A stretch of 29,335 bases of DNA from a virus, in the IMG/VR virus record IMGVR_UViG_3300021091_006069, positions 1 to 29,335 of that record; one strand, given 5' to 3'. Every line of letters starts with the position of its first letter. Position 1 is the first letter of the stretch. Below are positions 6,243 to 24,500 of this stretch, one piece after another. The translations under genes were made by a program, and so were the position numbers. The notes beneath the pieces were generated by a model. That model was not told where the DNA came from. It ran no database searches and worked only from the letters and a program-made list of their open reading frames with translations.

Positions 6243-7481
6243 TCAAGGATTATATCTCTTAAGATTAATCCTGCTTTTATTATCTCTTGCTTGAGTATAT
6301 AGCTCGAGGTAGCAATCAATATTTTTATCTTTCTCGAGAAATCTATCCTCAGCTACTGCTCGAGCATCTCTACTCTGTTTCATGTAGTGAGTTGTAGATT
6401 TAATAAGACGGTCAATTTGATCTACCATCTCACTACCGGTAGTGAATCTAATAGGAGCGTGTTTGTACGCTTGAATGTCTTGACAAACAGCCGGCATACC
6501 GAAACAACCAGCCTCAATATATTTGAGATCACTCTTAGCATTATTAAAATTATTATTCTGCAGAGGTGCTACCATTATGTTACACTTTAAATCATTAATT
6601 GCTTTTGGATATTCGTATAATCTTTTCCATGGATGAAATTCAATCTTACCTGCCTTAACCAGCGGTGTGAGAGGTAGCGGGTAGCCCCCTAAAAAGACCC
6701 ATTGATATTTGTCAATAGTTTTAGCTATAACATCACGAACATGTGCAAAATCATCGTTTTGATTTGTTCTGTTTTCAACATCAAAATGAGCGCCGGATCC
6801 AGGATAAAGAATGCGAGGTTTAATTTTCTTACCCACACAATATCTGTCGTAGATTTCTCTAACTTTACTATCTCTGTAGAGATTACCTATCCACCACTCT
6901 GGCGGAAAATTCGGTATAACTGTTATATTTTTATTTCCAGTTTTCTGTATATAATAGTCACGCATGAAATCACATGTAACAGTAACCTCATCACACATAG
7001 CCATTATTTCCTGCGAAATTTTTCTTATTTCAGGATTCACAAATGCGGGTTTAAATTTATTATAATCTGGAATATCCTCTGAAAAAATAATATCATCTAT
7101 TTCATAGATAATTCTAAATGAGTGCTTGCTTGCGAGCTGTCTTAAGTATCGTACAAACTCTCTTTGATGGGGCGTAGCCTGCCTCTGAATTCTAACTGAT
7201 TTGATACCAGCAAAATAACGCTCGTCTAAATTCATAACCGTAGAGCCGTGTACGATGTGTTTTTGATGAGCATTAAGGAGATGCTCTGGCCAAATCATTC
7301 GCCAAAAACCGCATCCGGAGTAATCTGCATAATAATTTAGTGATCGTGTTAAATCCTGTTCCGGCATTTTTAAAGGGGCGGGTGGAGGCGAAAGTATGTG
7401 CGCAGGCGGGGGCCCGTATGGGGATGCCGCAAAAGGAGAGTGAAACGGCTTAAGACTGTTGAACGGATCCGGAGAAAACAT
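6243..7481 (-). CDS. GT-B fold glycosyltransferase (GT4-like) in the replication module
   Basis: The product has 412 residues. The first 40 residues are Pro-rich low complexity (PYGPPPAHILSPPPAPL), probably a flexible tail. The rest resembles GT4-like (glycosyl transferases group 1) enzymes: an N-terminal half with YEIDDIIF at about 125, a linker TVIPNFPPEWW at about 187, and a C-terminal nucleotide-sugar-binding region with RILYPGSG, WVFLGGYPLP and the E-x7-E-like segment SDLKYIEAGCFGMPAV at about 330. The position is unusual, directly between gp43 and gp46 in the gap where T4 encodes clamp and clamp-loader genes. That makes DNA or modified-base glycosylation a possibility, as T4 alpha-glucosyltransferase lies near gene 47, but a virion or surface-sugar role is equally open. 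Sugar donor and acceptor are unknown. Confidence 0.8.
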   Translation of the reverse strand: MFSPDPFNSLKPFHSPFAASPYGPPPAHILSPPPAPLKMPEQDLTRSLNYYADYSGCGFWRMIWPEHLLNAHQKHIVHGSTVMNLDERYFAGIKSVRIQRQATPHQREFVRYLRQLASKHSFRIIYEIDDIIFSEDIPDYNKFKPAFVNPEIRKISQEIMAMCDEVTVTCDFMRDYYIQKTGNKNITVIPNFPPEWWIGNLYRDSKVREIYDRYCVGKKIKPRILYPGSGAHFDVENRTNQNDDFAHVRDVIAKTIDKYQWVFLGGYPLPLTPLVKAGKIEFHPWKRLYEYPKAINDLKCNIMVAPLQNNNFNNAKSDLKYIEAGCFGMPAVCQDIQAYKHAPIRFTTGSEMVDQIDRLIKSTTHYMKQSRDARAVAEDRFLEKDKNIDCYLELYTQARDNKSRINLKRYNP

Positions 7482-7497
7482 GTTTAAAATATGTAGT

Positions 7498-9315
7498 TTA
7501 ATTGTTGATAAAATCTACACGTCTAGTGACTCCATTATACTTTTCCAGCATAATAATTTCACCGGTAGCAAACTTTATACTCTCTTTTCTGTGACTTATT
7601 ACAAAAATACACTCTTTATATTTTTCAATTCGCTCTTGAAGTATATCTAAAACAAGTTCGATACCTCTCTCATCAAGGCTTGAGTCGAGCAACTCATCGT
7701 AAAGACTAAAATTAAACGTAGTGTCACCTTGTAAGCGCCTGATATCCATAAAAGTAAACAAACAAGCGAGATCTATATTTTTACGCTCTGCACCTGAGAA
7801 ATTGAAATAGGAGCACATCTTATCCTTATCATTTATAATAGTCTCTTCAAAATACTCATTAAATGTGCACGTACAGTTTGCGTCCATTTTTTTGAGGTAA
7901 TAACTTAATCGACTATTTAGCAGATGTATTATTTTTTTGATAAGAAAAGACTTTACACCCTCTTCTGATAACACAAACTTAACGTTAGTGAGCAGCTCTA
8001 ATTCATCTTTACTAACACTTATATCGCTATCTATTGTAGATAGTCTTTTTTTCTGCTCTACCACCAATTCATAAAAGGTATTGCTTTCGCTGTTTGTAGA
8101 TTTAATCTGACTGTCTATATCGTTTATCTGTAATTTTAGTCTATCTATTTCAAGCATCGACTCTTTATATTGATTTTCAAGTATAGTTAATTTGGAATAT
8201 TTTGTATCTTCAACAATAATACTTTTTTTAAAATTCTCACAAACTACTTCGTGTTCAGCTATTTTAGAACTAAATTCGTCCTTACTTAAGTTGAGAGATT
8301 GTATTTCATTGTGAATTTTTTTAATTTCAGAGGTTATGTGATCTCTATCTTTTTCAGTTATATCTCTCAAGCACATAGGGCATCTATCGTTATTACTATT
8401 GACTTTTGAAACAGTCTTACTTAAAGACAGCATTTCCCCCTCAAGACCCGACATTTTATGTTTTAATTCGTTAATGACACCTCTCACTGCAGCTATATTA
8501 GCCTCGTGCTCATTTTTTTTAAGTAGCGTATCTCTTTTTTTTGTCGAATAATCTATGTCACGTAATTTTTCGAAATTAATATTTAATTTTTCTAGCTGCT
8601 CATAGAGACCTTTTAACCTCTCTTCCAACTCTGTTATTTTTTTGACTTTTTTAGCATTAAAAGTTGCATACTGAGATTCGAGAATAGTTAAACTATTTTG
8701 TACCTCGGTCCTCTTACCGAGCAAGATATCAAAGTCTCTCTTTTGATCACTATACTGTGATTTAGCTTCAATAAGCATTTTACTAAAAATTTCTAGATTA
8801 AAAATACTTTCAATAAATTTGCGCTTATCCTGTTTCTTTTTACCCATGAACGGTAAAGTATTATTAAGGGTCATTATTACACAATTATCAAATACCTCCT
8901 GATTACTGTTGAGTAGATTAGCAACGTAATCGTTGTTATTTTGAATAGTATCGAGAGTTTTATCCTCACCATCTACTATAACACTGACTTTAGATGGGTT
9001 GAGAGTTCTTATAACTTTATATTTCGTAGTAGATCTAGTTGTAATAATATCAAAATCTAATACCACTTCGCACCTTCTACCCGTGCAGTCATTATTGACG
9101 TTTTCCTTTTTAATGTCTCTTATAGTATTACCAAAAATAGCGAAATTTATAGCATCTGCAATAGATGACTTACCTACCCCGTTACGTCTATCCTCTTTGT
9201 CTTTATTATTACCAGTAATTATATTAAGACCGGTATTAAAATTAACGCACACCGGCTCATCTCCAATAGATAGAAAATTTTTAATATTTATCTGCTTAAA
9301 TTGTATGTTGTTCAT
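7498..9315 (-). CDS. 46: Recombination endonuclease subunit gp46 (SbcC/Rad50-like)
   Basis: This is the ATPase subunit of the gp46-gp47 complex that resects DNA ends for recombination-dependent replication. It has 605 residues (T4 about 560). The P-loop ends NGVGKSS at 45-51 but is preceded by an eight- or nine-residue charged insertion after ITG. A long coiled coil (about 185-440) carries the zinc hook CPMC at 312-315. The ABC signature FSGAE is at 506-510, Walker B LYDELLD with DE at about 540-541, and the switch histidine in FVISHRKES at about 575. It overlaps the gp47 stop by four bases (ATGA), so the two are translated together in a fixed ratio. Confidence 0.95.
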   Translation of the reverse strand: MNNIQFKQINIKNFLSIGDEPVCVNFNTGLNIITGNNKDKEDRRNGVGKSSIADAINFAIFGNTIRDIKKENVNNDCTGRRCEVVLDFDIITTRSTTKYKVIRTLNPSKVSVIVDGEDKTLDTIQNNNDYVANLLNSNQEVFDNCVIMTLNNTLPFMGKKKQDKRKFIESIFNLEIFSKMLIEAKSQYSDQKRDFDILLGKRTEVQNSLTILESQYATFNAKKVKKITELEERLKGLYEQLEKLNINFEKLRDIDYSTKKRDTLLKKNEHEANIAAVRGVINELKHKMSGLEGEMLSLSKTVSKVNSNNDRCPMCLRDITEKDRDHITSEIKKIHNEIQSLNLSKDEFSSKIAEHEVVCENFKKSIIVEDTKYSKLTILENQYKESMLEIDRLKLQINDIDSQIKSTNSESNTFYELVVEQKKRLSTIDSDISVSKDELELLTNVKFVLSEEGVKSFLIKKIIHLLNSRLSYYLKKMDANCTCTFNEYFEETIINDKDKMCSYFNFSGAERKNIDLACLFTFMDIRRLQGDTTFNFSLYDELLDSSLDERGIELVLDILQERIEKYKECIFVISHRKESIKFATGEIIMLEKYNGVTRRVDFINN

Positions 9316-10352
9316 TTAGCGAATTGATAAATTTCAAGACACTTGGCATATAACTTGGTTTTAGAAGGCGTGTCTATTTCAAGGAGCTCAACAAACTCCT
9401 TCATTATGTCCTCCATATTAACCCCAGCAATATCACAATTTTTATCGTCCGCAATATCTAGTGCACCTGTATTGACTGCGTAGTCGACAGTGATAAATGC
9501 CGGTCTAAAATTGGAAATTTTTGTAATAATTCTTTCAACCTGATCAACCTTAATCTTTTTATCAACTATAAGACGAACAATATTACCTTTAACGTTGATC
9601 TCGCTAAGCTTAGTACCCTCAATTAATTTAGAGGTTAATATTTTTATGTGTTTCGGGGACAGGGTATTTTCTACGAATTCAGCAATTCCCGTAGTGGTAT
9701 CGAGAAAATAAACCCCTTTACTAGACCCACTATCACCAAAATCCATTTCAAACGGGTTTCCAACATACGTAATAGCGCCGGTTTCGTATTTTTTATGATC
9801 TCGTAAATGGAAGTGACCCGAATAAACATGTCTTGCTTTGGATATAATATCTAAGGAGTCTATACCCCCGTCACAAAGCTTATTTTTATTCATTTTAAAT
9901 GAATTAATCTCAAGGTGACCGAAGAGATAATCTGTTTTAACGTCCAAGCTACCTCCCCAAGGCACAAAGGCTGCAGTTTTTTTGCCAGGAAACTCCACCA
10001 CGGTAGTTTCATTAAAAATTGTTAACATATTTCTTCCGCTAAATATATTGAGAGAATTTATTCCCGAATGTTCCTTGTAAAAACTGTCGTGATTACCTGG
10101 TATCATTAAAAGATTATATGAAGTCAATCTTTCAAGTAATTTTCTCCCAACGTCGAGCGTATTGACAGCAACCTCATCCCGGTAATGAAAATAATCCCCT
10201 AGAAATAGAATAGTATCAACGTTGCGCCTACTTACCTCATTTAAAAACCAGTCACACCATCTCATCGAGACGTCATGCCAAAACGTATGGTTTTGGTGGA
10301 CCCCTAAATGAAGATCGGAAAAAACAGCAACCTTGTCTGTGTTAATCTTCAT
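9312..10352 (-). CDS. 47: Recombination nuclease subunit gp47 (SbcD/Mre11-like)
   Basis: This is the metallophosphoesterase partner of gp46, supplying the nuclease activity of the complex. The product is 346 residues, close to the T4 length (about 339). Metal-binding motifs are all present and in order: FSDLHLG (D13, H15), LGDYFHYRDE (D53), PGNHDS (N87, H88), FGHLE (H146) and SGHFHLRDH (H180, H182). The C-terminal third is the capping and gp46-binding region, less conserved. The start ATG at 10352 lies inside the end of gp55 (11-base overlap), so the order gp55-gp47-gp46 is tightly coupled, as in T4-like phages generally. Confidence 0.95.
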   Translation of the reverse strand: MKINTDKVAVFSDLHLGVHQNHTFWHDVSMRWCDWFLNEVSRRNVDTILFLGDYFHYRDEVAVNTLDVGRKLLERLTSYNLLMIPGNHDSFYKEHSGINSLNIFSGRNMLTIFNETTVVEFPGKKTAAFVPWGGSLDVKTDYLFGHLEINSFKMNKNKLCDGGIDSLDIISKARHVYSGHFHLRDHKKYETGAITYVGNPFEMDFGDSGSSKGVYFLDTTTGIAEFVENTLSPKHIKILTSKLIEGTKLSEINVKGNIVRLIVDKKIKVDQVERIITKISNFRPAFITVDYAVNTGALDIADDKNCDIAGVNMEDIMKEFVELLEIDTPSKTKLYAKCLEIYQFAK

Positions 10353-10803
10353 TATCCGTATTCTGACCCTCAGTATTTTTTATATAAATATTTTCTTCGT
10401 CTATCATTAGGTCGAGATAGAGCTTATCTTTATACTCACCCACACACTCTTGGTATTTTTTTTCCTTTTTAATTCTATTAATAAAGGCATGAAACGCTAT
10501 AGTAGTAAAATATGAAAATGGCGAAAACCCGGTATTGAGTTTAAATTTTTTATTCTTTAAGGCGGAAAACATTTTAACAATGGCATCACCCACCATTTCA
10601 TCTTTATAGCTGTAGTTAATAAAATTCGGAGCGTAGCTTAATCCGTTTGCAATTTTTGTTATAGACTCTGCTAGCTTATTACTAATTTTATTAGATTTAT
10701 AATATAATTTAATCTCTTCCTCGAACTCCTTCGAGTTGACATAATTTTCTTTTTTTTCACTCGGAGATTTCTTTTTTATGGACTTGGATTCGCTCTCGTT
10801 CAT
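10342..10803 (-). CDS. 55: Late-transcription sigma factor gp55
   Basis: gp55 directs host RNA polymerase to late promoters of TATAAATA type. I chose the ATG at 10803 (153 residues), because the longer frame to 10863 would need TTG and run further into uvsW. The body matches T4 gp55 in layout: YVNSKEFEEEIKLYY near the start, a middle region KDEMVGDAIVKMFSAL, and FSPFSYFTTIAFHAFINRIKKEKK, corresponding to T4's [21 protein letters not shown]. That segment is a region 2-like helix pair that contacts polymerase and the -10 element. T4 gp55 ends in a hydrophobic clamp-binding tail (SLDFLYE); this protein instead ends polar, TEGQNTDNED, so clamp coupling may differ. It overlaps uvsW by 47 bases. 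Confidence 0.9.
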   Translation of the reverse strand: MNESESKSIKKKSPSEKKENYVNSKEFEEEIKLYYKSNKISNKLAESITKIANGLSYAPNFINYSYKDEMVGDAIVKMFSALKNKKFKLNTGFSPFSYFTTIAFHAFINRIKKEKKYQECVGEYKDKLYLDLMIDEENIYIKNTEGQNTDNED

Positions 10804-12187
10804 ATAAGATGTCACGCCGCCAGCTATGCTCCATACTATATTTAAAATTATCTGAGATATCAACTATTACGAGTCTTTTCTTGCTTTCATGCAGTCTTAA
10901 TCCCCTGCCTATCGATTGAATAATTTTTATTTTGGCCTTACCTCCTCCCGCGAAAGCAATGTAGTGTAAATTTTTAATATTAATTCCGGTAGAAAATATT
11001 TTGGAAATAGCTATAACAACTACATTTGTATTTTGCTCCACCAATTGCTTCACCTTCTCCCTCTCGTCTACCTGCACCTCACCTTGTATAAAATATACCT
11101 GTTTATTGTTACATATCTTCTTACATACGTCATACAGGTTTTCACCGTGCTTAATATAATCAACCATTATAAGAATGTTATTGTCTGCATTATTTGCAAG
11201 CTTAGCAATAGTGTTATTTCTAAACTCACTACCTATTAAATAATCCAATTCCTGTCGGTACGGGTTTATATCTGATGAGCGATATAACCGCGTCTTATGA
11301 TTTAGTTTAAGCTTTAAAACCTTGGCATTGGCTACGTAACCCTCAACCCTCAATTCATAACTATTTTTTTCATATAAAACCGGGCCGATTTTTCCTATAA
11401 TATTCCATTGATCCAGCTTATCTTCAGGCATTGTACCGGTAAATCCGTACTTGTGGGGGGTCTTTATTTTTTTAATTATTTTATTAACTTTATTACCTCT
11501 TCTAATCTTATGTACCTCGTCTACTATTAATAAATCTATATAGTTTATCCATGTAAGATCTGTCTTTGAGCTTTGTAGTATACCTAGATTGGCTATAATA
11601 ACGTCTGTACTTAAATCCAGTAAATCATCACCCGTCCATTTTGAAAAGGAAAATGGTACGTTATATTCAACAAAATCATTAAAGGTTTGCTCTACAAGAC
11701 CCCTATCTGGAACAATAATAAGGCCTTTTAGGTTGTTGTCGTAGAAAGTAGTAATGCGAGAAACTAGCGACGCAACAGTAAGGGTCTTACCGCCCGCAGT
11801 AGCGAGGACTACTGTTCCTCTACCTGAGATAAGACAGCGTTGTACTATATTACTTTGATACTCTCTTAATTTCAAATTAAGAGGGTACGGTTCAGTGGTA
11901 AAGTTGTGCGACCAATTTTTACTGGGTCGAATAATGTTCGTAAGGTTATCGGAACAGTAAATTTTAGAGGTATAAGAAGATGCAGCTAGATATTTTACAA
12001 TTTCAGGTATAAGACCAGGATCACATCTTCCAGTGGGAGTTATAGCATAATTTCTTCGCTGTATAAAACCGCCGTATCCCCGTTGAAATTTTGCAGCATT
12101 ATTTTCTTCCGAAAAATGCTCACGAATTTGATCAAAAAAATCGCCTCGAATTATAGCCTGCCCCTGTTTATCTATATCAAAATTCAT
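10757..12187 (-). CDS. uvsW: Branch-migrating DNA/RNA helicase UvsW
   Basis: This superfamily 2 helicase unwinds R-loops and branched recombination intermediates and helps switch origin-dependent to recombination-dependent replication. It has 476 residues (T4 UvsW about 500). A substrate-binding N-terminal domain of about 100 residues precedes the helicase core: LREYQ (Q motif-like, about 107), ATAGGKT Walker A at 129-135, DEVH at 223-226, FTGTMPE at about 254, and motif VI QSIGRGLRL at about 426. The ATG overlaps the uvsY stop by one base (TAATG), and the 3' end overlaps gp55. The adjacency of uvsY and uvsW is as in T4. Confidence 0.95.
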   Translation of the reverse strand: MNFDIDKQGQAIIRGDFFDQIREHFSEENNAAKFQRGYGGFIQRRNYAITPTGRCDPGLIPEIVKYLAASSYTSKIYCSDNLTNIIRPSKNWSHNFTTEPYPLNLKLREYQSNIVQRCLISGRGTVVLATAGGKTLTVASLVSRITTFYDNNLKGLIIVPDRGLVEQTFNDFVEYNVPFSFSKWTGDDLLDLSTDVIIANLGILQSSKTDLTWINYIDLLIVDEVHKIRRGNKVNKIIKKIKTPHKYGFTGTMPEDKLDQWNIIGKIGPVLYEKNSYELRVEGYVANAKVLKLKLNHKTRLYRSSDINPYRQELDYLIGSEFRNNTIAKLANNADNNILIMVDYIKHGENLYDVCKKICNNKQVYFIQGEVQVDEREKVKQLVEQNTNVVVIAISKIFSTGINIKNLHYIAFAGGGKAKIKIIQSIGRGLRLHESKKRLVIVDISDNFKYSMEHSWRRDILYERERIQVHKKEISE

Positions 12188-13893: not shown

Positions 13894-14286
13894 ATGCAGT
13901 CAAAATTTTGGAAGATATACAGAGAGTTTGTAACAGAACAGCAAGATCCTGAGCAACCTCAAGCTGTGGCAAGCATAGAAGGCGGAGCACAGCAACCGGA
14001 CGCAAGCGCACCAGCAGCCGCCGAACCGGCAGCTAACAATCAACAGGACATAGACAGCCAGGCACCAAACGATCAATTAGACACCTCGGGTTTCGTAACT
14101 TTAGTTCGTCTTTTAAAGATAGCATTTGTCGTACGGCCTAAAGAAGAGGACGCGGGCAATATTATGGATATAGGCGAAATCAATGGCGCTAATGTTTATG
14201 ATAAGTTTCGCACAATATTGTCTTTAATTAAAAAATATAACCCGGATATTGATATTGACATGTCTCTTAATCAGACACCTAAATGA
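13894..14286 (+). CDS. Late protein with targeting-like N-terminus and Gln/Ala/Pro linker
   Basis: The product has 130 residues. The N-terminus MQSKFWKIYREFVTEQQ is amphipathic, aromatic and ends with a VTE site, resembling a prohead-protease-cleaved targeting peptide. Residues about 18-65 are low complexity, rich in Gln, Ala and Pro (SAPAAAEPAANNQQD), likely disordered. The C-terminal 60 residues look folded (FVTLVRLLKIAFVVRP, VYDKFRTILSLIKKYNPD). The layout of cleavable peptide, linker and small domain fits a head-internal or scaffold-associated protein; this is inferred. It has its own late promoter and overlaps the next gene as ATGA. Family unknown. Confidence 0.7.
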   Translation: MQSKFWKIYREFVTEQQDPEQPQAVASIEGGAQQPDASAPAAAEPAANNQQDIDSQAPNDQLDTSGFVTLVRLLKIAFVVRPKEEDAGNIMDIGEINGANVYDKFRTILSLIKKYNPDIDIDMSLNQTPK

Positions 14287-14556: not shown

Positions 14557-15189
14557 ATGATGTCTTTTAGTAAGTTTTATGAACAAGAAGTTATTAGCTC
14601 TGTTGAGCCTATTTTTATAGAGGGTGTAGGGCAGCTATCGTGTAAGGTTGATACCGGCAACGAAAGTCATAACGTTCTACACGCAGTCAATATATCAAAA
14701 ATTGGCGATAGTAAAATCAGATTTTTATCAAACAATAAAACCTTAGTAAAAAAATATCTGGGTACAATTAACATACATACAGGATCGGGTCACGAAGAGG
14801 AAAGATATATCGTACCCTTCAACTTAAAATTTAAAAGTAAATTTTACGAAAATATACCCTTCACTTTAGCCGATCGAAGTCAAACAGAGTTTCCGGTTTT
14901 GATGGGAGAACCGTTTTTAAAAAAAATTTACGCAGTTGTAGACGTCAACAAACCTCAGCTCTTATCCTCACATTCGTCTCAACCGCTCGGTTACCCGGAA
15001 GCGGTTGAAGGCCGGTTACATTCTCTAGCAATGAGTGATCAAGCAGAAAGATATGCCTACAGAGATTTGGAAAGCATTTATGAGAGAGAAGTCTTGAATG
15101 AAAAAAGGAAAGAAAGACTTCTTCCGATAAAGATGGCAGTTATGATCCAAGGTGTGGCAGAGGGCCAACTCCTCAAAGTTATTAAATAA
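14557..15189 (+). CDS. Retropepsin-like aspartic protease (PF05618-like) with targeting-like N-terminus
   Basis: The product has 210 residues. The active-site loop is CKVDTGNESHNVLHAV with D32-T33-G34; the known family (often annotated as 'ATP-dependent zinc protease' or RimK-associated) reads KVDTGA-x-x-S-x-LHA. The second hallmark, the hydrophobic-hydrophobic-Gly turn, is FPVLMGEPFL at 112-121, matching 'YPVLLGRRFL'. Together they define a single-domain retropepsin fold that would act as a dimer. The last 60 residues are helical, acidic/basic mixed (SIYEREVLNEKRKERLL). The N-terminus MMSFSKFYEQE resembles T4 capsid-targeting peptides; the second ATG at 14560 could be the real start. The gene lies among late small proteins and overlaps folE tail-to-tail. 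Its substrate is unknown; head maturation is a guess. Confidence 0.72.
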   Translation: MMSFSKFYEQEVISSVEPIFIEGVGQLSCKVDTGNESHNVLHAVNISKIGDSKIRFLSNNKTLVKKYLGTINIHTGSGHEEERYIVPFNLKFKSKFYENIPFTLADRSQTEFPVLMGEPFLKKIYAVVDVNKPQLLSSHSSQPLGYPEAVEGRLHSLAMSDQAERYAYRDLESIYEREVLNEKRKERLLPIKMAVMIQGVAEGQLLKVIK

Positions 15190-15847
15190 CGGAAGATTTG
15201 CTGGCTTTCGCAAACTCTACAAATTTATAAAACTCAGCTCGTGATTGATCATTATTATCTAAAAAAGCACCAGTCATACGAGCTGTTCTCATGGTAGAAT
15301 TATGACCTATACCTCTATGCGAGCAACAGGTATGATCTGCCTCAAGGACTACTGCGGTTCCTTTATTACCTACGCATATCTTATCAACATGTTTGGAAAT
15401 TTGACCTGTTAAATTTTCTTGTACTTGCGGTCTTCTTGCATAAAACTCTACTATTCTGTTAAGTTTAGAAAGACCTATAACTTTACCCGTTTTAGCCGGT
15501 ATGTAAGCTACGTGCGCCACACCGCTAAAAGCTAAATGATGATGAGAGCACAAAGAGAGTAATTTAATATTGGTTTGACACACTATACCATCGTATCCCT
15601 CAAGATTATCAAATGCAGTAATTTTAGGTGAATGGCAATAGCACCCAGAAGCGAGATCATTTACAAAGGCCTTGGCTACCCTGCGAGGAGTATCACTGGA
15701 GTTAGGATCGTTTCTCCAGTCTATTTCTAGGGCATCCAAATAAGCTCCATATGCTATTGCAGCTTTATCAATAATTTTTTGCTTTTCCTCTTCCGTTCTC
15801 GGAAGATTGCCGTTAGCAAATTGTAGCTTTTCACACTTTAAATTCAT
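15182..15847 (-). CDS. folE: GTP cyclohydrolase I
   Basis: FolE converts GTP to 7,8-dihydroneopterin triphosphate, the first step toward folate and toward preQ0. I chose the ATG at 15847, giving 221 residues, essentially the E. coli length (222); the upstream in-frame ATG at 15901 would add 18 hydrophobic residues overlapping a divergent gene. Zinc ligands are present: C100 and H103 in LLSLCSHHHLAFSG, and C174 in ADHTCCSHRG. The substrate-binding stretch IGLSKLNRIVEFYARRPQVQE (about 124-144) is intact. It is the only minus-strand gene within the plus-strand late cluster, tail-to-tail with the protease gene. With no folate genes nearby and QueD, QueE and QueC in the same window, I infer that it feeds preQ0 synthesis. 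Confidence 0.95.
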   Translation of the reverse strand: MNLKCEKLQFANGNLPRTEEEKQKIIDKAAIAYGAYLDALEIDWRNDPNSSDTPRRVAKAFVNDLASGCYCHSPKITAFDNLEGYDGIVCQTNIKLLSLCSHHHLAFSGVAHVAYIPAKTGKVIGLSKLNRIVEFYARRPQVQENLTGQISKHVDKICVGNKGTAVVLEADHTCCSHRGIGHNSTMRTARMTGAFLDNNDQSRAEFYKFVEFAKASKSSVI

Positions 15848-15884
15848 ATAAATTAATATAACAATATAATAAAGGGTATCAACT

Positions 15885-15892
15885 AATAAATA
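15885..15892 (+). promoter_or_regulatory. Late promoter AATAAATA for the gene at 15900
   Basis: TAAATA ends seven bases before ATG 15900. It lies in the divergent interval between folE and the plus-strand gene. On the minus strand the same interval carries an AT-rich folE start region with CTTTATTATAT (15864-15874). Confidence 0.6.
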
Positions 15893-15899
15893 ATTGTAC

Positions 15900-16298
15900 A
15901 TGCAGTTTGATTTAATTATACAGGAAAATTTAAGAAACGCCCTTAAATTAATTAGAGTTAAGGTTGACCCTATATTTTCTTCATATCATAATTTTAAAAA
16001 GGTAGCTTCCTATGAGGGATACTTTTTAGAAGAAACGCCTGAAATTATTAAAATAATGGTATCAGAGCCATCCCTTTCTGTAATCGACATACCTAAGCTA
16101 ACGATAGTTAGTCCGCAAATATTAGAGAAGTTCAAGCACTATATTCTCGACCAGCTGAACATCCCGGAAGAAGATTCACTGTTTGGTCAGATATCTAATA
16201 GTACCTGTCTTAAGGATATAGAAGTATTTTTAAAACAATCAGGCCATAAGGATGTAGATCTTATAAATATATACAGAAATTATATAGAGCATGTTTAG
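15900..16298 (+). CDS. Hypothetical late protein, 132 residues
   Basis: I prefer ATG 15900 over TTG 15894 because the late promoter sits seven bases before it. The product begins MQFDLIIQENLRNALKLIRV, where IQE could be a cleavage site like those of neighbouring proteins, although the stretch may simply be the first helix. The rest is alpha/beta, acidic, with ILEKFKHYILDQLNIPEED and a C-terminal helical part ending YRNYIEHV. There are no recognisable catalytic residues, membrane helices or repeats. Its last eight bases overlap the next start, so the two are probably translated together. I do not recognise the family. Confidence 0.65.
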   Translation: MQFDLIIQENLRNALKLIRVKVDPIFSSYHNFKKVASYEGYFLEETPEIIKIMVSEPSLSVIDIPKLTIVSPQILEKFKHYILDQLNIPEEDSLFGQISNSTCLKDIEVFLKQSGHKDVDLINIYRNYIEHV

Positions 16299-17226
16299 GT
16301 CTATTAAAACATTCAAAGACCTCGTTGGTATATTAAGCGAGCAAAACAGCCAAGCTGCTGCAGCTCAAAGACAGTCTGCGCTCCAAGCTAAAGGTGTAGC
16401 TCCAGGAGACGCAGTCCGGCCGGGAGTTAGTACACCTACAGGAAGAGCAGGCAATTTGCTCACTAAAATTGACCCCACTACTTTGGCTGCTAAAATAAGA
16501 TCAGTTGAGACTGGTGGTATATTTAAATTTTTAGGCGACACTCTAACTGCAATGAGCATACAAAAGCTTCGTGAATTTAATTTTAAATCACAGTTCCCGC
16601 GAGGCTGGCCTAAGAAGGGTTCTAAATTTATTTATATACCTGTGGTAAATGCTTTGAAGGGAAGCAACAAACAAGGTATAGAGGGAGTGGTAATTAGCGA
16701 TAGCGTTGCTGGTCAAAATTTAATACTTAATATTGATTTTCCCAACTCGAGTGTGGGGGGTTCTATTAACCCTCAACAAAATAATATGAAATACGCCAAA
16801 CGCGTAGTAGCTACAATCAATACTCAAATGAAAGATAACCCCAATTTTAGTATGAGCGCTTGGGAAGTGCAAGACATAATACCCGGTAAGGGAGCAGTTC
16901 GTGACCCTGAAAACTCAGCTCACTACCAGAGGCCCCTCACATACGACGTAACTACTTCTAAATTTACATTTGACCAAGCGGGTTCAAACGATAGCAGTGC
17001 GCCCAGTAGTGCGAGCAAGACTCCGAAAGGGACCACCCTCACCTTATCAGTAAACGACCTTAAAACTAAGTATAAGGTAACCAACCCGGTGAAAAATGTA
17101 GTATTTAGATTCAAACCCATGCCCACATCAAGCGAAGTAGAGGCCAAAATTATCTCCGATCCGATATCTGTAGACACCAATACAGGTAGCAAAATAGACG
17201 TTGTAATAGTACAAGTGGTAAAATAG
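16291..17226 (+). CDS. Putative virion protein with targeting-like N-terminus, 311 residues
   Basis: The N-terminus MFRSIKTFKDLVGILSEQN is amphipathic and ends in LSE, matching the LxE site cut by T4 prohead protease. Residues 18-60 are low complexity, rich in Ala, Gln, Gly and Pro. From about residue 60 the protein reads as beta-rich with helices (WPKKGSKFIYIPVVNALKG, TLTLSVNDLKTKYKV, KIDVVIVQVVK), and the segment at about 225-245 is Ser/Asp-rich. No enzyme motif is visible. It is the largest member of the targeted-looking set and might be a structural or internal head protein; that is inference. It starts eight bases inside the preceding gene and ends 24 bases before the next, which has its own late promoter. 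Confidence 0.7.
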   Translation: MFRSIKTFKDLVGILSEQNSQAAAAQRQSALQAKGVAPGDAVRPGVSTPTGRAGNLLTKIDPTTLAAKIRSVETGGIFKFLGDTLTAMSIQKLREFNFKSQFPRGWPKKGSKFIYIPVVNALKGSNKQGIEGVVISDSVAGQNLILNIDFPNSSVGGSINPQQNNMKYAKRVVATINTQMKDNPNFSMSAWEVQDIIPGKGAVRDPENSAHYQRPLTYDVTTSKFTFDQAGSNDSSAPSSASKTPKGTTLTLSVNDLKTKYKVTNPVKNVVFRFKPMPTSSEVEAKIISDPISVDTNTGSKIDVVIVQVVK

Positions 17227-18048: not shown

Positions 18049-18375
18049 ATGAACCAAGAATTCGATAACCTCGTTAACAGCGTCCTCAATGAAGAGTTCG
18101 GCAAAAAAACTGCCTACAACCCTGGAGATAACATAGAGTGTCCGTTCCTTCTTCGAGATTCTCTAGCAGAAAAGGGCATCCAGGTTAGTGATGCCGATCT
18201 TACCACACTCTACGACAAGTACAAGAATAAGCCTTACGCTGATGCTGAAAAGGAAGTAAACAGCGCTCGCTCTAAAAAAACCAATAACTCCCTTAATCCC
18301 TACGGTCAAATGGATCCACAAAATCCTACGTATAGAGAAACTAAAGTAAGTCCACTAGAAACTTCTATGTACTAG
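18049..18375 (+). CDS. Hypothetical late protein, 108 residues, LNE-type N-terminus
   Basis: The product begins MNQEFDNLVNSVLNEEFGKK, whose LNE could be a prohead-protease site. The rest is hydrophilic: IECPFLLRDSLAEKGIQVSD resembles a helix-loop-helix, followed by DLTTLYDKYKNKPYADAEK and a Pro/Tyr-rich tail (NPYGQMDPQNPTYRETK) that is probably disordered. It lies 18 bases after the previous gene without a clear late promoter, so it is likely co-transcribed. It ends just before an AT palindrome at about 18374-18391. No family recognised. G+C is slightly higher than in the genes before it. Confidence 0.65.
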   Translation: MNQEFDNLVNSVLNEEFGKKTAYNPGDNIECPFLLRDSLAEKGIQVSDADLTTLYDKYKNKPYADAEKEVNSARSKKTNNSLNPYGQMDPQNPTYRETKVSPLETSMY

Positions 18376-18769: not shown

Positions 18770-19414
18770 ATGAGTTTTATAAGTACGAAAATAATCGAAC
18801 TAGGTTCGTGTGCATTTCGTCAACCGCGCGCAATACACTCCCACTGTAAGTTTATTCACGGCTACAGGCTCCAGGCTAAATTTTGGTTTAGTGCTTCCTC
18901 ACTAGATGAACGGAATTGGGTTGTGGATTTTGGTGACCTCAAGGACCTCAAGTCAGTTTTGCAGAAACAATTCGATCACACATTGTGTATTGCAGGCGAT
19001 GATCCGCTTTTAGAGTATTTTGAGAAACTTCATTCACTAGGTGGTTGTGACTTAAGAGTAATGCCCGGCGGCGTAGGCATAGAGCGTACTGCAGAATGGT
19101 GCTATCAAGCTGCCGATTCGTTAATTAAACAAAAAACGTCAGGTAGATGCAGATGCGTGAGAGTAGAGGTATGGGAACATGAGCAAAACTCTGCAATCTA
19201 TGAAGGTCTCGTTGAACCTGTTTTGAATGGTACGAGAGAAGCAACCGAACCAACTACCTCAACGCCAGCGTCAACGCAACCTCCTACTGCTGTGTCACCG
19301 CAAAACAATAAAACAACGATACCTGCAAAAGTAGGTAATACGGTTTCTAGTGGTTGGTCCAATCCTTTCGCAGGAACCACATGGGGAACCGATCGTCCGG
19401 GTTCTGCTATATGA
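18770..19414 (+). CDS. queD: 6-carboxy-tetrahydropterin synthase QueD with C-terminal extension
   Basis: QueD makes 6-carboxy-5,6,7,8-tetrahydropterin from dihydroneopterin triphosphate, the second step to preQ0. Recognisable parts are SCAFRQPRAIHSHCKFIHGY (13-32) with catalytic-type C26 and zinc-type H30, WVVDFGDLKDLK at 50-61, the FDHTLC catalytic Asp/His at 69-70, and VRVEVWEHEQN with Glu near 136. The usual HGH is HGY here, and the N-terminal AAH is replaced by an AFR plus HSH arrangement; I recall this form as a distinct QueD subfamily rather than a dead enzyme. Residues about 150-214 form a Thr/Pro/Ser-rich extension ending in NPFAGTTWGTDRPG, absent from bacterial QueD (about 120 residues). 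The stop overlaps the next frame as ATGA. Confidence 0.85.
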   Translation: MSFISTKIIELGSCAFRQPRAIHSHCKFIHGYRLQAKFWFSASSLDERNWVVDFGDLKDLKSVLQKQFDHTLCIAGDDPLLEYFEKLHSLGGCDLRVMPGGVGIERTAEWCYQAADSLIKQKTSGRCRCVRVEVWEHEQNSAIYEGLVEPVLNGTREATEPTTSTPASTQPPTAVSPQNNKTTIPAKVGNTVSSGWSNPFAGTTWGTDRPGSAI

Positions 19415-22135: not shown

Positions 22136-22879
22136 ATGAACGACGTTAGCATTTATTTAAGCGATGATATGATTTTTTATACAATAGAGGGTGAGGGGAG
22201 GTATGTGGGTTATCCGTCTATCTTTATGAGACTCTCTATGTGTAATCTTACCTGTATAGGATTTAAAAGCGAGGATGCGCCTTATGGTTGCGATAGTTAT
22301 GTAAGCTGGTCGGTCAAGAATAAGCACACAATAGAGAGTCTTTATAAGATATTTGTAGATAAAGGTTATATTGAACATCTCCGCAAGGGAGCTATATTAA
22401 AACTAACTGGAGGCGAACCCTTAATTCAACAAAAACAATTGTTGGCATTTATTAGATATTTCGCGGTGAAGGAAGAGTTTGTTCCTAATATTGATTTTGA
22501 GACGAACGGCACTCTAATGCCTGACTCAGACTGGCATCTTGTATTTAATGCTACGTTTACTGTTTCTCCTAAGCTAAGTAATAACGGAGACCCGGAAGAG
22601 AAGCGGTACAAGCCTGAAGTGTTATCATACTACCAGGGTATTAATTCGTGTTTTAAGTTTGTAGTACGAGGAGATCGGGATATCGAGGAGATTAAAGAAA
22701 AGTACATGAACAAGGAGATTGGCATTACTAGAAATCAAATATGGCTAATGCCTTGCTGCGGGTCACGCCAAGAGCAAAATGAGGTCGCTGGTAGTGTGGC
22801 TGAGTATTGTAAGCTGTTGGGTGTTAAGTTTTCACCTAGACTCCACTTAATGATTTGGGACAAGGCCTTAAAAGTTTAA
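22136..22879 (+). CDS. queE: 7-carboxy-7-deazaguanine synthase QueE (radical SAM)
   Basis: QueE converts 6-carboxy-tetrahydropterin to 7-carboxy-7-deazaguanine using S-adenosylmethionine and a 4Fe-4S cluster. I chose ATG 22136 (247 residues), since the longer frame adds a Phe-rich stretch that is the antisense of the phoH start. Diagnostic parts are FYTIEGEGRYVGYPSIFMRL (14-33), the cluster cysteines C36 and C40 in MCNLTCIGF with a third candidate C52 in PYGCDSY (CX3CX11C rather than CX3CX2C), KLTGGEPLIQQ at about 90-100, and NIDFETNGTL at about 120. It follows phoH divergently after 51 bases and precedes the superoxide dismutase gene, whose promoter overlaps its stop. Confidence 0.92.
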   Translation: MNDVSIYLSDDMIFYTIEGEGRYVGYPSIFMRLSMCNLTCIGFKSEDAPYGCDSYVSWSVKNKHTIESLYKIFVDKGYIEHLRKGAILKLTGGEPLIQQKQLLAFIRYFAVKEEFVPNIDFETNGTLMPDSDWHLVFNATFTVSPKLSNNGDPEEKRYKPEVLSYYQGINSCFKFVVRGDRDIEEIKEKYMNKEIGITRNQIWLMPCCGSRQEQNEVAGSVAEYCKLLGVKFSPRLHLMIWDKALKV

Positions 22880-22885
22880 TAAATA
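22878..22885 (+). promoter_or_regulatory. Late promoter AATAAATA for the superoxide dismutase gene
   Basis: TAAATA overlaps the queE stop and ends six bases before the GTG start at 22892. The SOD gene therefore has its own late promoter, separate from queE. Confidence 0.6.
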
Positions 22886-22891
22886 TATATT

Positions 22892-23515
22892 GTGAGTAAA
22901 TTTAATAACATATATAATCTAGTATTAGAAGGTAGTGATTTAGCTTACAAACCGGTGCCACTGCCATATAAATTTAATGATTTAGAACCGTTCATAGATG
23001 AAGAGACTATGAGTCTCCATTATAATAAGCACTATAAGGGGTATATAAAAAAACTTAACAATGAGATATCGGGATCAACTCCTATTGTACAAGTTATAGA
23101 AAATATTAAAAAATATTCTGATAAAGTAAGAAACAACGCGGGTGGTTACTACAACCATACGCTATTTTGGTCGTATATGACACCGCGCGCCACCTCCCCC
23201 TCTGATGAATTAGTAAAGGCAATTAGCTCTAAATTCACCTCACTCAAAAACTTTAGGGAGAAGTTTATTGAAAGTGCCTTAAGTTTATTTGGTTCTGGGT
23301 GGTGTTGGGTGGTAAAGAAAAATAACAAACTTGAGTTAGTACATACCTCTAATCAAGATAACCCGTTAATGACTAGGCAGGGTAAACCTATATTAGGTAT
23401 AGACGTATGGGAGCATGCGTATTATAAAAAATACGGGCCTGATAGAGAGAGATATATTGAAAACTTTTTTAAAGTTATTAATTGGAATAATGTAAGCAAT
23501 AACTTTATTAGTTGA
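22892..23515 (+). CDS. sod: Fe/Mn superoxide dismutase with N-terminal targeting-like extension
   Basis: The enzyme dismutates superoxide to oxygen and peroxide. It has 207 residues. All four metal ligands are visible: H43 in SLHYNKHY, H89 in YYNHTLFW, and D171 and H175 in GIDVWEHAYY; FGSGWCWVV at 133-141 is the family core. I cannot tell iron from manganese. Bacterial enzymes begin about at the LPY of PVPLPYKFNDLEPFID; here 20 residues precede it: MSKFNNIYNLVLEGSDLAYK. No later start codon is available in that stretch, so the extension is real if the gene is translated from GTG 22892. It resembles T4 capsid-targeting peptides with a VLE|G cleavage site, which would leave a normal-length enzyme. 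A late promoter is six bases away. Confidence 0.92.
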   Translation: MSKFNNIYNLVLEGSDLAYKPVPLPYKFNDLEPFIDEETMSLHYNKHYKGYIKKLNNEISGSTPIVQVIENIKKYSDKVRNNAGGYYNHTLFWSYMTPRATSPSDELVKAISSKFTSLKNFREKFIESALSLFGSGWCWVVKKNNKLELVHTSNQDNPLMTRQGKPILGIDVWEHAYYKKYGPDRERYIENFFKVINWNNVSNNFIS

Positions 23516-23545: not shown

Positions 23546-24289
23546 ATGCGAATTGCAATTTCAGGTTCACAATGTTTGGGAAAGACAACACTCTGCAATG
23601 ATATCCTTGACACGTGGAAGACCTACAAGAAGGGCCCCGCATCTTTTAAACAACTAATTAAAGATAATAACATACCGCTTAATAAGGAAGTAACTAAAAA
23701 TGGACAACAGCAAATTCTCCAAGCTCAATATAAAGACGTCAGAAATTTTAAATCGGGCGATAAGGTTATTTTCGACCGGTGTCCTCTTGACAATATTGTG
23801 TACTCTCTTTGGTCTTTTGATAAAGGCAAATCTGATATTGATGAGAATTTTATTAAGGATTCTATAGAGATAGTAAAAGAGGCGATGAGATATATTGATG
23901 TCGTTTTTTTTATTCCCATTACCAAAGCCTCTCCCATACAACTCGAGGCACGGATCATGCGAGAAATAGATGAAGAATATATTACTGAAATAGACCATCT
24001 ATTTAAAGCGATATCGTACCAGCATGGGAGAAATGAATGCTCCTTTTTCCATAAGGGTGATTCGCCGCCCATTATCGAAATATTTGGATCAAGACAAGAG
24101 AGAATTGAGCTTCTTAAATATTATCTCAACACTGACGGTGATTTGGTGGAGACACAAAGCTCGGTGTTAGATTTAGAAAATTTACACGCGGCTGAGCAAC
24201 TTCTGAGAGAACAAAAAGAGGCGTTTGTTGAAGAAAACAAACTAGATTTAATTAAAAAAGGTATTATAACTAACAAATATACTAAATAA
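23546..24289 (+). CDS. P-loop NTPase, nucleotide/NadR-like kinase (AAA_28 type)
   Basis: The product has 247 residues. It starts directly with a P-loop strand MRIAISGSQCLGKTTLCNDI (GSQCLGKTT 7-15), then has KVIFDRCPLDNIVYSLWSF (about 73-91), where DRCP resembles the DRxP/DRS nucleoside-binding motif of kinases, then VVFFIPITKASPIQLEARIM with a lid-like Arg region. This layout matches P-loop proteins annotated as NadR/Ttd14-type kinases or phage AAA ATPases. The C-terminal 60 residues are charged and helical. A nucleotide or coenzyme substrate is likely but not identifiable. It follows SOD by 30 bases without a late promoter of its own. Confidence 0.75.
   Translation: MRIAISGSQCLGKTTLCNDILDTWKTYKKGPASFKQLIKDNNIPLNKEVTKNGQQQILQAQYKDVRNFKSGDKVIFDRCPLDNIVYSLWSFDKGKSDIDENFIKDSIEIVKEAMRYIDVVFFIPITKASPIQLEARIMREIDEEYITEIDHLFKAISYQHGRNECSFFHKGDSPPIIEIFGSRQERIELLKYYLNTDGDLVETQSSVLDLENLHAAEQLLREQKEAFVEENKLDLIKKGIITNKYTK
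24281..24288 (+). promoter_or_regulatory. Late promoter ACTAAATA for the gene at 24294
   Basis: It overlaps the preceding stop. The TAAATA core ends five bases before GTG 24294. Confidence 0.6.
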
Positions 24290-24293
24290 TTAT

Positions 24294-24500
24294 GTGAGTT
24301 ATAATAACGAAGTAAATTTAATTTTGGAAAAGTTTAGTAGGGTTAAACTTAGCGAGGACGACGCCCCTTCACTCGGCTTCGAATTATCAGACCGTTTTAT
24401 AAATGAGTTTAGGAGAAAGTTGACTCGCCTTAGAAACTCGGGTATGTCTAAAAAACAAGCACTACGAAAAATCTACACTGCCTTACAATCTCACGTTTAG
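24294..24500 (+). CDS. Small late protein, 68 residues, ILE-type N-terminus
   Basis: GTG 24294 is the start consistent with the late promoter five bases before. The protein opens MSYNNEVNLILEKFSRVKLS, with ILE as a possible prohead-protease site, then has an acidic stretch (EDDAPS) and a basic, helical C-terminal half (FINEFRRKLTRLRNSGMSKK) that could bind DNA. The arrangement of cleavable start plus basic domain is like T4 internal proteins. No family is recognised. It ends convergently on the fibre-like gene, with stops overlapping by four bases. Confidence 0.65.
   Translation: MSYNNEVNLILEKFSRVKLSEDDAPSLGFELSDRFINEFRRKLTRLRNSGMSKKQALRKIYTALQSHV

Follow-up and report, generated by a model that had tools for sequence, protein, structure and literature searches.

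Which proteins a phage head carries is a question for which most answers so far come from T4 and a handful of giant phages. In T4, the prohead protease gp21 cuts after L/I-X-E, and the first 10 residues of the internal protein IPIII suffice for targeting (PMC9026906). The same paper describes foreign enzymes that were fused to the T4 capsid targeting sequence (CTS), packaged and delivered. CTS propeptides comprise 10-20 residues, and the Alt protein is cut at both ends (PMC5694885). In the T4 record itself, ipII and ipIII both begin MKTYQEFIAE/A. The locus described below encodes a superoxide dismutase (SOD) that is probably targeted and trimmed in the manner of IPIII or Alt.

The window, i.e., the whole stretch of DNA that was analyzed, is a 29,335-base IMG/VR record of a marine T4-like phage. 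Its minus strand bears a T4-like replication block encoding DNA polymerase gp43, UvsX, UvsY, a UvsW-type helicase, gp46/gp47, and the late sigma factor gp55. The SOD gene (22892-23515, plus strand, GTG start) encodes 207 amino acids and is located among QueE and thymidylate-kinase-like genes. The ORFs at 404-1803, 15182-15901, 18770-19414, and 22136-22879 resemble QueC, FolE, QueD, and QueE, respectively, a set that suits queuosine/preQ0 DNA modification and of which QueE is the only confirmed member (PHROG 2076). No head genes, gp21 included, are found in the 29-kb window.

Both Fe/Mn-SOD Pfam domains are present (PF00081, E=3.8e-22; PF02777, E=1.4e-36), beginning at residue 19, and homologues in the PDB are found down to E=1e-55, while PADLOC and PHROG returned no match for this protein. 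It belongs to the Fe/Mn family only and not to the Cu/Zn family. The ligands H43, H89, D171, and H175 (three histidines and one aspartate, in full-protein numbering) are invariant across 38 aligned phage SODs, as are Y51 and Q155, and the sequence harbors the NNAGG and NQD motifs, which we take to be marks of the Mn type. Judged by its domains and ligands, the predicted product is an intact-looking Mn-type enzyme.

Its N-terminus departs from that of cellular enzymes. Cellular relatives typically start 7 residues before the LPY motif, a position equivalent to residue 17 here, whereas the window SOD possesses 23 residues before LPY and is thus about 16 residues longer. The first-pass annotation had noticed an N-terminal extension of about 20 residues with a VLE|G site, and the ORF at 22892-23515 does encode an additional N-terminal helix ending in VLE|G. 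It had also held that no alternative start lies nearer the fold, which is wrong, as codon 22 (22955-22957, plus strand) is a GTG. This codon is nevertheless unlikely to be the true start, since no late box precedes it, it would begin two residues ahead of LPY, and the conserved extension would be lost.

Residues 1-13, MSKFNNIYNLVLE (22892-22930, plus strand), resemble a capsid-targeting propeptide by comparison and are predicted to form a detached helix. The putative prohead protease site, placed by its conservation in phage SODs, is E13/G14 (VLE/G, 22928-22933, plus strand), and a cut after E13 would leave a mature SOD of 194 amino acids (22931-23512, plus strand). The length of 13 residues falls within the CTS range of 10-20 (PMC5694885). 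In the AlphaFold2 model, the SOD fold is confident from about residue 21, a separate helix spans residues 3-14 outside the fold, and pLDDT stays below 50 for residues 1-12; a low-confidence outlying helix is as expected for a flexible propeptide. As an amphipathic, charged helix that has neither a hydrophobic core nor a lipobox, the extension is similar to the N-termini of gp22 and of internal proteins. Its lack of a hydrophobic core led us to reject a secretion signal.

The comparison set comprised 80 viral loci with SOD relatives and 80 cellular loci. A slot 7-12 residues before LPY was searched for [LIVMF]xE, and the 25 upstream residues were shuffled as the null. In this slot, just before the fold, 51 of 52 distinct phage SODs contain the motif, whereas shuffling predicts 12.7. 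It is absent from all 70 cellular SODs whose start was parsed, mainly since these proteins do not extend to that position. The lone exception, L004, displays LVSE a few residues further upstream. The window site, V-L-E, is not a strict L/I-X-E, and P3 in relatives is mostly I, L, V, or F. As a motif, [LIVMF]xE is weak and frequent in Glu-rich helices, the shuffled values being 12.7 of 52 here and 16.4 of 25 at the second site described below; with 51 of 52 against 12.7, and 0 of 70 cellular proteins, the extension is nonetheless in excess of chance. Phage homologues lacking the extension had been proposed as a refutation of packaging; the extension and site are kept in these 51 of 52 proteins, which favors packaging. 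In the tree, all phage SODs form one clade, separate from cellular SODs, with a support of 100/100. Inside this clade also falls the SOD of a contig assigned to a Fluviicola MAG (L204, JAJTEO010000009.1), with the tag-like start MNLKIVDILREG; this contig probably represents a phage or prophage that was binned together with the bacterial sequences. Several SOD-bearing records labelled as phage were set aside as apparent host DNA, among them MW462191, whose SOD has the ordinary bacterial start MAFELPALPY among bacterial-type genes.

The genomic position of the gene in relatives is informative. A gp21-type prohead protease was found in G002, G008, G009, G010, G013, and G016. In G002 (the phage of locus L003), gp21, gp22, and gp23 are directly followed by the SOD gene, and L004 exhibits the same order; in G008, G009, G004, and G013, the SOD gene does not adjoin the capsid genes. 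With sites placed by eye against T4, the gp23 proteins of relatives read LNE/A, LKE/A, FRE/A, or IEE/D at the stretch that is cut in T4, and their gp22 proteins begin ILRE/A, ILGE/A, ILSE/E, or VLTE/E. The putative sites in gp23, the major capsid protein, and in gp22 are thus [LIF]xE sites of the kind predicted in the SOD.

The SOD would be made late in infection, in keeping with the spacing of its putative promoter and the presence of gp55. As the first-pass annotation had recognized, the gene has its own T4-type late box, AATAAATA (22878-22885, plus strand), ending six bases before the GTG, and gp55, which would read such boxes, is encoded in the window (10342-10863, minus strand; PHROG 234, E=3.8e-25). 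Across six contigs, about 124 TAAATA boxes end 5-6 nt ahead of a start codon and few lie at other spacings, and a late box is present at the SOD gene in the window (6 nt), G002, G013, and L012. In T4, the late transcription start lies about 6 nt after the late box; with the box 5-6 nt before the codon, late SOD messages would be leaderless. The 5-6 nt peak goes along with no visible ribosome-binding site in the window (22878-22892 and 24283-24294) and in contigs G002, G004, G008, G009, and G013. Given this arrangement, these phages should, in contrast to T4, produce many late messages that lack a leader (compare the upstream regions of ipII and ipIII).

The extension is not restricted to the SOD. 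A loose CTS regular expression was enriched about twofold whether the genes were late, early, or of other classes, and was therefore dropped for a profile built from 12 SOD extensions only; this profile was applied to 687 other N-termini from six contigs. Sixteen N-termini matched at a score of at least 6, against 1.0 expected from internal-Met peptides and 3.0 from shuffles; eight of them have a late box and one an early-type box. The top match (21.7) is a small unrelated protein of 68 amino acids (24294-24500, plus strand), encoded 0.8 kb downstream of the window SOD and preceded by a late box, TAAATA, at 24283-24288; its tag reads MSYNNEVNLILE, to be compared with MSKFNNIYNLVLE in the SOD. 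Other candidate tagged proteins in the window, all on the plus strand, are one of 108 amino acids with MNQEFDNLVNSVLNE (18049-18375, score 10.2), one of 311 amino acids with MFRSIKTFKDLVGILSE (16291-17226, score 8.3), and one of 130 amino acids with MQSKFWKIYREFVTE and a late box (13894-14286), which matches the loose pattern only. A distinct SOD lineage (L013, L016, L017, and L022) bears a different tag, MRELIKKILKEGFLSEAKK in L017, where a P-loop protein (AAA_33/Zeta_toxin) encoded near the SOD gene shares 68% identity with SOD residues 1-22 (E=2.5e-4). Since this kinase-like protein shares the differing tag, each SOD appears to carry the tag of its own phage. The tag thus appears to be modular: the same phages also have it on proteins that are unrelated to the SOD and often late.

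CTS-like N-termini were also noticed on other enzymes, a Zn_protease/retropepsin-like protein, cytidylyltransferase-like proteins, and a zeta-toxin-like P-loop kinase (window 14557-15189; G013:C1:60666-61268; G008:C1:17657-19468; L017:11342-11995). Contig G013:C1 further encodes, at about 7187-10741, 54202, 123009, and 178972-179728, a late-box gene family in which N-termini like MTRKDINLLAEAY and MNRKDQKDIGKLYIEA recur; these look like a further set of tags for head targeting.

Many freshwater-type relatives have the SOD embedded as a module within ORFs of about 240-744 amino acids, where an [LIVF]xE site precedes it. Most long polyproteins also exhibit a doubled [LIVF]xE between the SOD and the C-terminal domain, about ten residues apart and at near-fixed positions. 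At least one such site occurs in 25 of 25 polyproteins, while shuffling already gives 16.4 of 25, making the fixed position the stronger argument for this second site. The common C-terminal domain has a conserved E...GxD...QxK pattern. A fold search with it gave nothing below E=0.001, the best matches being PD-(D/E)XK-type nucleases at E=0.01-0.1, and these matches together with the pattern are the grounds for the label "nuclease-like". Some N-terminal domains harbor a metalloprotease-like HEWxHE motif. Both assignments are tentative, and a Pfam search of the partner domains found nothing convincing. Loci of this type include L019, L027, L034, L046, L040, and similar ones, which have a hydrophobic-x-Glu at the joints and a metalloprotease-like N-terminal and/or a PD-(D/E)XK-like C-terminal domain.

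Taken together, the SOD is probably an internal head protein that would be targeted and trimmed like IPIII or Alt and then, in all likelihood, ejected. The first 13 or so residues would form an amphipathic helix acting like the T4 CTS and docking the SOD in the prohead core. The gp21-type protease of the phage would cut after E13, leaving the 194-residue enzyme in the head with the DNA. The trimmed SOD would probably be ejected with the genome into the next cell, where it could act from time zero and remove superoxide before any phage gene is expressed. The comparative evidence is good for the docking and trimming steps; packaging, cleavage, ejection, and benefit we infer. The first-pass annotation had already suggested that the enzyme is packaged in the head. 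Targeting to the head and trimming by the prohead protease are well supported by comparison, through the tag, the site, the adjacency to gp23, and the polyproteins, with the adjustment that V-L-E is not the strict gp21 site.

An extension without any targeting role would make the SOD one more of the many metabolic genes that phages carry, and its intact catalytic residues, its neighbors in the window (QueE and thymidylate-kinase-like genes), and the SODs found among metabolic genes in jumbo phage MIJ3 and Vibrio phage 2.275.O would all suit such a role. It is distinctly unlikely, given that the extension and its site are conserved, that the same tag occurs on unrelated proteins, that the gene follows gp23 in G002 and L004, and that polyproteins exist. 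Even less probability attaches to an extension whose sole function is to anchor the SOD during assembly, in the prohead core or on a membrane, or that serves as an export signal, the mature particle being devoid of SOD. In T4, core proteins including gp22 and gp67 are indeed cleaved into fragments, most of which leave the head (PMC9026906), and the near cellular relatives include Bacteroidota SODs whose N-termini are long and resemble signal peptides. Against this, the charged amphipathic helix has no hydrophobic core or lipobox and resembles the N-termini of gp22 and internal proteins, and a single cut site ahead of a compact fold predicts retention in the head, as for IPIII.

The SOD could also be packaged by its tag and guard the particle itself, its DNA and tail proteins, from outside superoxide, for example in sunlit water. 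This would share all the packaging evidence set out above, the relatives are environmental viral contigs, and a head could in principle store many SOD copies. It remains unlikely: the T4 head-internal proteins of known role act after ejection (PMC9026906), and the tagged or fused companions of the SOD look host-acting (kinase- or zeta-toxin-like, nuclease-like, protease-like) and would not protect a particle. Of the two roles that the first-pass annotation had put forward, delivery into the host appears to fit such companions better than sun protection of the particle.

If the SOD is indeed ejected, phages in the environment supply their hosts with an antioxidant enzyme along with the viral genome, which would link infection to superoxide stress or host oxidative defence. 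With about even chances, a large marine and freshwater T4-like clade ships a cellular-type SOD via a swappable tag, some lineages doing so as a polyprotein (metalloprotease-like, SOD, nuclease-like) that is cut into effectors delivered with the genome. Such a polyprotein, if real, would be an unusual way of loading several effectors at a fixed ratio, and the swappable tag with the [LIVF]xE rule would allow the head cargo of marine T4-like phages to be predicted from sequence.

Several known systems invite comparison. Jumbo phages of the MIJ3/PA5oct group and Vibrio phage 2.275.O also encode Fe/Mn-SOD homologues, but these are about 30% identical, shortened, and encoded among metabolic genes, and that of 2.275.O has no such N-terminal extension. 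The shortened PA5oct-like SOD of Pseudomonas phage MIJ3 (L126:3947-4495), despite its metabolic neighbors, has a CTS-like, helix-like start, MNDSIKKYISIAE/AASS, ending IAE/A; the MIJ3 paper names only four proteins from mass spectrometry, and the SOD is not among them. In the giant phages SPN3US and phiKZ, a gp21-like protease cleaves head proteins after Glu, as proposed here for the SOD, and does so at several sites in some of them, but their propeptides often exceed 100 residues, and the available parts of PMC5694885 and PMC9026906 do not mention a SOD cargo. Within the literature searched, whose coverage is incomplete, no phage SOD is reported from virions, and neither SOD as head cargo nor the polyprotein form is described. 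A virus-encoded SOD in a particle is nevertheless known from chlorovirus PBCV-1, whose late protein A245R has the presumed role of reducing superoxide inside the cells it infects (PMC7019647). A245R is of the Cu/Zn family and belongs to a eukaryotic algal virus, whereas the enzyme described here is of the Fe/Mn family, belongs to a bacteriophage, and would reach the particle by a T4-like head route, its packaging being deduced. A close parallel is that of T4 IPI, IPII, IPIII, and Alt, which, as predicted for the SOD, are products of late genes whose N-terminus is a short amphipathic propeptide with hydrophobic-x-Glu at its end, and the T4 internal proteins likewise have a tag common to unrelated proteins. 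Compared with the IPIII CTS, the SOD tag has 13 residues instead of 10, one more helical turn, and a valine at P3; compared with the T4 internal proteins, the cargo is of cellular type and unrelated to any of them, and polyprotein versions exist. The T4 delivery system and a packaged SOD in an algal virus are thus already known; what would be new, as far as the literature searched shows, is a SOD carried in the head of a bacteriophage, and likewise its arrangement in a polyprotein.
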